Positions 28,327 to 29,570 of a stretch of 36,503 nucleotides of DNA are shown here, in pieces. Within the stretch, counting starts at the first letter, position 1, and each line of letters starts with the position of its first letter. The stretch is taken from positions 1 through 36,503 of the forward strand of contig JADEWQ010000053.1 of assembly GCA_015207585.1 (NCBI GenBank), read 5' to 3'. Under the pieces are notes generated by a model. The model was not told the DNA's origin. It was given only the letters and a program-made list of their open reading frames with translations, and searched no databases. Source of the DNA: Pleurocapsales cyanobacterium LEGE 06147 (GTDB lineage Bacteria > Cyanobacteriota > Cyanobacteriia > Cyanobacteriales > Xenococcaceae). Both the position numbers and the translations under genes were made by a program.

Positions 28327-28383
28327 AAAGCGACGGGCGACTATGGCGAACCATCCTAGAAAGAATGGAATTCCCGTCGCTTT
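28327..28383. repeat. 11-bp inverted repeat with 35-nt loop
   Basis: AAAGCGACGGG (28327-28337) and CCCGTCGCTTT (28373-28383) are exact complements. CCAT/ATGG can pair inside the loop. It is 75 bp beyond the tic20 stop codon and could end that transcript or be a remnant of a mobile element. Confidence 0.6.
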
Positions 28384-28458: not shown

Positions 28459-28938
28459 TTAGCGAATTTGGGAAGAAGCAGCATCGGAAATAGCTGGAAT
28501 TTCAGCATATAAACCGCGTACGGACTGAACTATGCCATAAAAACAAGCAGCTAAAGTCCCTAAAAAAATCGTATTATTAAGGGTTTCTGTCAATAAACTG
28601 TAGCGACCGAATCCCATTTCTAAAATACTCATGAGCAAGCTACATAAAATTAAGAAAATATCCAATAAAATTGCTTGCATGGTATTAAAACGAACAAAGT
28701 AATTAAACCGTTCACTTCTGACTATGGCAAACCACAACACAAAGAAAATAATCAATCCAGCAAAGGGAAGACCATAGTAAATGGTAATCAAAGGAGCTAG
28801 AGGAGCATAAATAATGCTGAGAAAAGGAAATTGTTTCAGTAGTAACAAACCAAAGGGTAAAACATAAACGAGTGGCAGTAAATAAACTAAGGCAGCGATC
28901 GCCCGGTCTTTAGCATCTACTGCTTCGGGATTGGACAT
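28459..28938 (-). CDS. Tic20-family membrane protein
   Basis: A 159-residue protein with four hydrophobic segments, related to the Tic20 channel subunit of chloroplasts. The sequence YLLPLVYVLPFGLLLLKQFP, then YYGLPFAGLIIFFVLWFAIV and NYFVRFNTMQAILLDIF is the core pattern of cyanobacterial Tic20 homologues. I take ATG 28938 because AGGAGA lies just upstream. An ATG further up at 29001 adds 21 residues (KQEALVLATGTSLQLLGEI) that come from the neighbouring mobile-element remnant. Role in cyanobacteria is not settled. Confidence 0.88.
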   Translation of the reverse strand: MSNPEAVDAKDRAIAALVYLLPLVYVLPFGLLLLKQFPFLSIIYAPLAPLITIYYGLPFAGLIIFFVLWFAIVRSERFNYFVRFNTMQAILLDIFLILCSLLMSILEMGFGRYSLLTETLNNTIFLGTLAACFYGIVQSVRGLYAEIPAISDAASSQIR

Positions 28939-28961
28939 GTTTATTTCTCCTAACAGTTGAA

Positions 28962-29150
28962 GTGACGTACCCGTCGCTAAAACGAGGGCTTCCTGTTTCA
29001 TCTACAGTCGCCTCTACTAGCAAGCTAGTTTTGGACTTACACCATATCCACTGGTTTTGCTTCACCCCGAAAGGTGGCACTGACAGTCGTATAGCTTCAG
29101 CTATACCCAGGCTACATTCCCAAGGTCGCGTCTGAGGTTTATCTCAGACT
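28962..29150 (-). mobile_element. Right-end remnant of an IS200/IS605 (TnpB) element, possible omega-RNA
   Basis: Read on the minus strand this segment is dense in short hairpins: CTGAG/CTCAG (29132-29147), a perfect GTATAGCT/AGCTATAC (29089-29106), CACC/GGTG with loop (29063-29076), and a bulged CCCTCG/CGACGGG stem (28970-28988) followed by GGGTACGTCAC. This order, including GAAGCCC before and a terminal TCAC, resembles the tnpB 3' end and right-end hairpin of IS200/IS605 elements, the part that encodes the guide (omega) RNA. No intact tnpB or tnpA is seen. It ends about 24 bp upstream of the tic20 start. Confidence 0.55.
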
Positions 29151-29570
29151 GAGATCGATGGCAAAACACCAGGCACACTCTGAGGAACTATTCAGCAATA
29201 ACGCCTAGCTAAATAGCAACATTAGTATTTTACAACACTTGAAGCCCTTACTACATAAAGATTATGTATCTAAACTGTCAACCGACTGACCCTGCCTCCG
29301 AATTCATCCCAGTCCTGAGCTTGCGAAGGATCAATCGAGGGACTTCTTCGGACAAACAGTTAAATTTATTGCTTCGGCTCTCTTCCGATCATAGAGCAAT
29401 TAAGTATTTACGACTCTAAATGGATGCCGTGTTTGATGCTTTGGATTGCGATCGCGATGGTAAAATTACTCTGGCAAAGATAACAGCAGGTTTAGGAGCC
29501 GCTCATCATTTAGCTCAAGCTAGCTAGGACCGCGTGCGGAAGTAAAAAAGTAGAGGTCTAGGTTTAGCTC
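29151..29570. other. Intergenic region with decayed sequence
   Basis: About 420 bp between the mobile-element remnant and the lysozyme-like gene. Apart from the 35-codon EF-hand frame at 29420-29527, no coding sequence is visible. A GC-richer stretch at 29280-29350 may be old coding or mobile DNA. Confidence 0.45.
29420..29527 (+). pseudogene. Orphan EF-hand fragment
   Basis: A 35-codon frame, ATG 29420 to TAG 29527, reads FDALDCDRDGKITLAKITAG, a canonical EF-hand calcium loop (D-x-D-x-D-G-x-I) except that the twelfth position is Lys where Glu is usual. A TAA immediately precedes the ATG and no other EF-hand or ribosome-binding site is near. Probably the last piece of a decayed EF-hand gene; a HIP1-type GCGATCGC falls inside the loop. 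It could be chance. Confidence 0.4.

Follow-up and report, generated by a model that had tools for sequence, protein, structure and literature searches.

The best described relatives of the locus studied here are guide RNAs of TnpB and small mobile elements without genes. In ISDra2, an element of the IS200/IS605 family, the guide RNA (omegaRNA or reRNA) sits at the right end, takes its guide from the flanking sequence and overlaps the 3' end of tnpB, according to the sections of the two papers available to us (PMC8612924, PMC10097598). In the same RNA, -5U to -3C are base-paired with -103A to -105G, which lie between the two strands of stem 1, as described in the available part of the structural study (PMC10097598). 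The RAGATH-18 RNA of IS607 is likewise placed downstream of tnpB in the available text on that system (PMC11061315). Gene-free elements are known from cyanobacteria too: the MITEs of Anabaena sp. 90 are small, repeated, devoid of ORFs and mostly intergenic, in the portion of the report consulted (PMC3542288).

We analysed a stretch of 36,503 nucleotides from the Pleurocapsales cyanobacterium LEGE 06147 (contig JADEWQ010000053.1, positions 1 to 36,503; hereafter the window). Our main reading, to which we assign a probability of roughly 80%, is that a decayed, non-autonomous (ORF-less) element of IS200/IS605 type lies 3' of TTAAC and 23 nt upstream of the tic20 start codon, that it has an omegaRNA-type right end, and that this copy is most likely a relic. 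Its parts are listed in Table 1.

Table 1. Features of the putative miniature element and its surroundings, in window coordinates
Feature	Position	Strand	Basis or remark
Miniature element, whole, 397 bp	28962..29358	-	Right end 28962, left end 29358 (left tentative)
TTAAC, presumed target/TAM, left flank	29359..29363	-	Comparable spacing to left-end motif in other copies
Left-end motif GAAGTCCC...GGGATGA, degenerate	29301..29350	-	Motif match
5' part common to genome copies C171 (whole) and C234 (part)	29134..29192	-	Sequence identity
OmegaRNA-like scaffold	28962..29142	-	Covariance model R1, window held out
Place of stem 1	29111..29132	-	Arms lost; GACG (29132-29129) complements 3'-end CGUC (28967-28964)
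Extra hairpin GTATAGC-TGAA-GCTATAC	29089..29106	-	Variable hairpin at the same place in other ORF-less copies
Stem 2, TATGGT (29046-29041) with ACTGTA (29008-29003)	29003..29046	-	Encloses GTAAGTCC and the loop hairpin
Right-end hairpin GGAAGCCC...GGGTACGTCAC	28962..28993	-	Terminal pattern
Guide position TTCAACTGTTAGGAGAAATA, the tic20 leader with ribosome-binding site	28942..28961	-	Sequence
tic20 (PF16166)	28459..28938	-	Pfam; start codon at 28938

Read in the direction of tic20, GGAAGCCCTCGTTTTAGCGACGGGTACGTCAC (28993-28962, minus strand) is followed by TTCAACTGTTAGGAGAAATAAAC and then by the start codon at 28938. The terminal GGGTACGTCAC occupies 28972-28962, and the tic20 leader adjoins it directly. 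The initial annotation had reported this hairpin, the terminal motif and the adjoining leader, with the right end read in the tic20 direction and the leader in guide position, and all of these are found in the sequence where it placed them. The start at 28938 fits the MSNPE/MANPE starts at two other loci (L086 and L089). An in-frame ATG within the right end (29001-28999) would lengthen the tic20 ORF by 21 residues (to 180 aa), and automatic annotation may overcall the gene in this way. The genome holds a second tic20 paralogue, 58% identical, on contig C107 (17041-17502). By eye, an inverted repeat, GCGACGGG/CCCGTCGC, lies between recJ and tic20 (28333-28382), possibly another mobile-element palindrome, and a short stretch left of the element on the plus strand (29420-29528, MDAVFDALDCDRDGKITLAKITAGLGA...) resembles an EF-hand fragment.

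To identify the right end, we built a covariance model, R1, from seven copies of other cyanobacterial genomes and held the window copy out. On the window, R1 matched 28962-29142 on the minus strand with 53.1 bits and an E-value of 4.4e-16 (the runner-up had 1.9), E-values being rough here by the tool's own warning. Over 52 loci, including the seven used for training, 48 matches were obtained at E <= 1, and the model also recognised right ends linked to tnpB (82.5 bits at L141, 79.0 at L144, 76.3 at L126 and 63.0 at L084). In the genome itself (6.23 Mb in 244 contigs) R1 had 19 matches at E <= 1, and for 16 of these the E-value was under 1e-4; in the class, with stricter filters, 52 of 291 genomes were matched at E <= 1e-12. 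A DNA search with 28940-29210 matched 10 of 388 class genomes at E <= 0.001, the own genome included, and the others reached E 2e-6 at best.

The terminal pattern GGAAGCCCN{8,30}GGGTASKTCAC, in which K was permitted at one position to accommodate the window's own variant, occurs four times in the genome (in the window, C70, C217 and C171; 6.2 Mb) against none in the reversed sequence. The tnpB-bearing stretches of C217 and C70 finish in GGAAGCCC-stem-GGGTASTTCAC. Across the order, 76 of 195 genomes carry the pattern, with no reversed-control match among the matches listed. The right end at 28962 is of TnpB/omegaRNA type, as the R1 match and the agreement of its terminal motif with those behind tnpB show. 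The likeness to IS200/IS605 ends, on which the initial annotation had staked its proposal, is borne out by the same motif, found behind tnpB in this and in other genomes.

The segment is repeated in the genome. A second copy of 28960-29133 lies on C26 between unrelated flanks, with 169 of 189 aligned positions identical (89%) and a 15-nt insertion that is mostly a repeat of the adjoining sequence. Partial matches occur at C171, C234 and C13. The common 5' part of the element is 90% identical to C171 over 60 nt and agrees with C234 at 24 of 25 positions. The C26 copy and the partial copies therefore show the segment to be a moved or copied repeat and no unique leader, and several copies at unrelated sites are also found among relatives in genome G040 (see below). 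The span first proposed, 28962-29150, is exact at its start and wrong at its end: similarity to other copies runs on to 29192, and by the left-end motif the element would extend to 29358.

Genes of TnpB type are plentiful in this genome. The zinc ribbon PF07282 has 76 matches at E <= 0.001 (71 over the cut-off), PF01385 has 56, and the TnpA domain PF01797 (Y1_Tnp) has 14. The window element itself contains neither transposase nor tnpB, and its longest stop-free stretch is 60 codons. In agreement with the initial annotation, which saw no tnpB left, tblastn with 27 TnpB proteins of the genome detected nothing similar over 1.4 kb upstream of the right end. Among the neighbouring proteins, the six that were scanned contain no TnpB-like Pfam domain.

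We assessed how often such right ends lack tnpB at 34 loci with the terminal pattern (4 own, 30 from other genomes). TnpB similarity was present within 1 kb upstream at 19 (at L118 on the opposite strand) and absent at 15, as judged by tblastn at E <= 1e-4 with the same 27 proteins as probes, which may miss divergent TnpB. Besides the window, the 15 comprise eleven loci that have a block in common with it (L083, L116, L117, L121, L124, L129, L130, L133, L135, L139 and L140) and three that resemble other remnants (L115, L127 and L137); the C26 copy was added to the block comparison. Among ORFs of at least 70 codons in the window and the eleven loci, similarities occur only where frames cross the RNA or its end, apart from one pair of flanking genes (L124 and L140), which stand at different distances from the element. 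For the 16 strong R1 matches of the own genome, tnpB similarity was found upstream of 6 and not of 10. At 30 further loci in five genomes, tnpB lay within 90 nt in 7 cases, a weak match 1.47 kb away in 1, and none was found in 22. Both linkage counts were taken from the best scorers to a model built on ORF-less copies, so they are biased towards that class and give no prevalence, and four loci (L148, L183, L184 and L189) had fewer than 500 bases upstream available.

The alternative that survives best, which we nevertheless consider unlikely, is a truncated ordinary element: tnpB once lay inside, was deleted, and the right end remained. The many tnpB matches of the genome, some with the same terminal motif, would suit this history, as would two right ends that follow short tnpB fragments (L152 and L159). 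Against it, the hairpin and TGAAGCAAAACCAG block of the window also occur in the ORF-less copy L129, and the best matches outside the genome among the 45 loci compared are ORF-less copies of G501 (80% over 83 nt and 71% over 133 nt); the search upstream, at a threshold that a divergent TnpB could escape, found no TnpB similarity. We also considered 28993-29192 as a tnpB remnant and rejected it, since it has no TnpB similarity and the ORF-less class fits better. What had been described as a right end left behind by loss of tnpB is indeed a right end; given that its best outside matches among the 45 loci are ORF-less, it more likely forms the better part of an ORF-less element of 397 bp.

We next describe the fold of the family, which was written from seven aligned copies of other genomes. 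Stem 1 contributes 8 bp to it and stem 2 another 6 bp; a crossing helix of 2 bp and three pairs from the right-end hairpin complete it. In the alignment 96.2% of the cells are paired, a measure favoured by the derivation of the fold from the same sequences, and double changes occur in 11 of the 19 pairs. The covariation score is 0.599, and sliding the partners by 1-3 columns yields no more than 0.180. Of 500 shuffles, none equalled the family fold on four of five measures, and 16 equalled it in further pair types, the remaining measure.

The bases before the guide covary with the stem-1 loop. The 3' ends of the relatives mostly read CUUCAC, GUUCAC or CGUCAC, and the loops mostly GGAAG, GGAAC or GGACG/GGGCG. 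All four pairs of this pseudoknot can form in 63 of 72 sequences and are broken in 9; with shuffled ends the mean was 29.5, and 63 was reached in none of 5000 trials. The 72 sequences are what remained of 98 model matches after 26 were dropped: 14 repeated a stem-1 region and end already in the set, 8 (including the window, C26 and C13) had no 5-nt loop, and the ends of 4 were unusual. When loop base 5 (G or C) was set against end base -6 (C or G), the counts were 39, 2, 0 and 29 (Fisher 1e-17, kinship ignored). Both states exist inside the own genome, GAAG/CUUC at C217 and GAAC/GUUC at C16 and C238. Judged by this covariation, the standalone RNAs are linked to TnpB guide RNAs through the pseudoknot fold as well as through the shared motif. 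Comparison of the copies also places the window element in an ORF-less, omegaRNA-bearing cyanobacterial group with a covarying fold.

The initial annotation had called the segment hairpin-rich. Hairpins are present, but in terms of folding energy the segment does no better than chance: as RNA, 28962-29142 has a z-score of -0.62, with 51 of 200 shuffles folding as well or better. As DNA, 28962-29000 scored -1.71 (12 of 200) and 28962-29110 scored -1.34 (15 of 200). Folding energy as a sign of a structured RNA was discarded, being significant in neither the RNA nor the DNA shuffles.

At the start of full-length relatives stand a TATAAT-like box and conserved sequence that reads TGGTCGCTGACCCGCCCGACTGTATGGAACAGACAGGCTAACTTC or a variant of this. 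This promoter-like start was seen by eye in an alignment of 18 copies, with the window and a few others as exceptions, and 14 of 16 loci matched a pattern drawn up from examples. A seed search of 98 pre-filtered ORFs revealed divergent small ORFs of ribbon-helix-helix (RHH) type about 170-210 nt upstream of the model match at eight loci: L172, L184, L192, L201, L203 (the same locus as L243), L239, L240 and L241. Weaker or sub-threshold Pfam matches added L179 and L205, which brings the total to 10 loci in 5 genomes among 105 locus entries scanned, some of them the same place; a seed match at L178, downstream of its RNA, was left out. Only the L205 protein clears the Pfam cut-off (RHH_1, 21.6 versus 20.5). 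At L172, L184, L192, L201, L203 and L239, the RHH-type ORFs (46-67 aa) start beside the promoter-like box of the standalone RNA. Such a divergent ORF could possibly regulate the RNA. The window element is too short for an RHH-like ORF, and its 5' domain aligns unclearly.

Taken together with the window, these loci lead us to a broader proposal, which we hold tentatively and at slightly under even odds. Cyanobacteria would have widespread standalone omegaRNA genes that are driven by a promoter, carry a conserved 5' domain of their own (unseen in tnpB-linked ends), are sometimes paired with a small, divergently placed RHH-type regulator gene, spread as ORF-less elements and are served by TnpB or a relative in trans, the host sequence at the landing site being the guide. 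The window copy would be a decayed member turned tic20 leader.

We searched for the left end with a pattern of TTAAC, 5-20 nt, the left-end motif and GGATG at 291-484 bp, loosened after examples were seen. It matched 8 of the 39 copies that have no linked tnpB, among them the window copy (397 bp); in controls it matched 5 of 402 equally long stretches taken from tic20 loci and 1 of 115 taken downstream of right ends. For the window alone, chance would produce the match in about 1% of cases. An earlier scan of 35 copies without tnpB gave 8 matches against 0.36 expected from mononucleotide shuffles; it left out L188, L195, L196 and L192 (the last with a weak distant tnpB match), and the scan of 39 covers all. 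An earlier form of the pattern also matched L108, a tic20 locus without the element. Matching left ends are carried by the tnpB-bearing L125, L143 and L181 of other genomes, L181 being 1 of 8 tnpB loci scanned. When 45 other copies were compared, none significantly resembled the part from 29193 to 29358, and the predicted DNA fold of the left end (z +1.12) is worse than most shuffles. We regard 29358 as a likely, not certain, left boundary and keep it tentative.

Evidence of movement comes from genome G040, where eight near-identical copies of about 540 bp (L228-L235) carry the omegaRNA scaffold, end in TTCAC and differ in their flanks; they share TTAG, not TTAAC, at the left. To judge by these copies, the G040 family is recently active. 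Turning to the window site, we obtained a tic20 match in 78 of 80 relatives. Inspection by eye of the region upstream of tic20 at 13 of the relatives' loci (L096 was out of register) showed neither the element nor an alignable spacer. A scan of genome contigs with tic20 gave three further loci.

The window copy has lost the stem 1 with pseudoknot loop that 63 of 72 relatives possess: R1 puts a single pair at its place, and 20 nt stand where the loop should be. Stem 2, whose six pairs are all standard and which covaries in the family, can still pair, as can the loop hairpin and the right-end hairpin. GACG can still pair with CGUC, but such a complement could well arise by chance (about 0.27 in 20 nt by a hand count of pairing 4-mers); the C26 copy ends in CGCC. 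Besides its own locus, TAM plus guide has one match with 3 mismatches in the genome, and so has the reversed control; no clear second target of the guide preceded by TTAAC was found in the genome. A simple sigma-70 scan of 28900-29450 found no promoter or terminator. Because stem 1 is lost, we read the window copy as most likely a relic, once mobile and now the tic20 leader, and probably not a working guide RNA. The right end stands so close to the start codon that the tic20 promoter would have to lie in or beyond the element, and the putative leader role follows from the same distance.

That the copy is instead domesticated, either as a working guide RNA with a TnpB homologue in trans or as a structured, regulatory 5' UTR of tic20, seems to us quite improbable, more so than truncation. 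Its strand and its closeness to the tic20 start agree with such a role, as do the still pairable stem 2, loop hairpin and right-end hairpin, the four-base complement and the abundance of TnpB matches in the genome. The loss of stem 1 speaks against it, together with a target search that equals its reversed control, the relatives' tic20 loci in which the element was not seen, and an ordinary folding energy. The suggestion of a domesticated RNA in the initial annotation finds no backing in a copy whose stem 1 is destroyed and for which the simple scan gave no promoter.

Known RNA families do not account for the segment. Rfam 15 at the gathering threshold gave one tRNA in the whole window and no match on the element; nothing matched 28850-29450 at E up to 5. 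At E up to 1, 11 ORF-less and 12 tnpB-type pattern loci gave tRNA and sub-threshold microRNA/snoRNA chance matches only. IscB/HEARO and RAGATH-18 RNAs are represented in Rfam, and neither was found by it in the window or the 23 related loci. Because no Rfam family matches the segment, the identification rests on the model made here. This dependence would leave room for chance similarity or for another structured RNA or mobile end (IscB/HEARO, RAGATH-18/IS607 or a riboswitch), but we judge that extremely improbable in view of the held-out match (by rough E-values), the empty Rfam result on the segment even at E up to 5 and the identical terminal motif behind tnpB.

Under the relic reading, the element would have inserted 3' of TTAAC upstream of tic20, with TTAAC as the presumed TAM. 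Its intact relatives are plausibly moved by TnpA in trans. An omegaRNA-type right end would put any flank, here the tic20 leader, in guide position. TnpB in trans plausibly binds the standalone omegaRNA of intact relatives and cuts the empty site, which carries TAM plus guide, and such cutting would favour retention of the element. The window copy, with stem 1 gone, is most likely only a transcribed leader and perhaps a promoter region of tic20.

For tic20 alone this is an ordinary case, a mobile-element relic serving as leader. If the class is true, TnpB guide RNAs are not mere by-products of tnpB and can exist and spread as separate small elements; the TnpB of a cell could be aimed from many loci, and RNA-guided control of genes would find natural raw material in such elements. 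A sharp test is offered by the covarying pseudoknot, with which such RNAs can be found and typed, and the family could join RNA libraries. Altae-Tran et al. reportedly mentioned standalone omegaRNAs for IscB in 2021, and the principle may therefore not be new. Among the literature matches listed, judged by title and the start of the abstract, none concerned standalone TnpB guide-RNA elements in cyanobacteria, nor was the cyanobacterial family, its 5' domain or its RHH-like neighbour found described there.

How does the family compare with the known systems? TldR proteins descend from TnpB. Their guide RNAs would be the precedent for an RNA-guided regulator, going by the available text (PMC13418256), whereas here the neighbouring proteins scanned lack a TnpB-like domain and no target was found for the window guide. 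The RAGATH-18 RNA is similar in that it serves TnpB as a guide without depending on the coding sequence, as the accessible part of the source presents it (PMC11061315), and differs in that the element here has no tnpB and no Rfam match. The ISDra2 omegaRNA shares the right-end position, the flank-derived guide and a pseudoknot of the stem-1 loop with the bases just before the guide (UUC at -5 to -3 in most relatives here), and its stems come in the same order, as we interpret the published description in the sections at hand (PMC8612924, PMC10097598). Relative to it, the full-length relatives add a 5' domain, while the window copy lacks stem 1, ends in CGUCAC and neither overlaps nor adjoins a tnpB. 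The MITEs of Anabaena sp. 90 are of type II, without evident similarity to the inverted repeats of IS elements, and the available part of that report mentions no guide RNA (PMC3542288); in the elements described here, by contrast, the omegaRNA scaffold is conserved.
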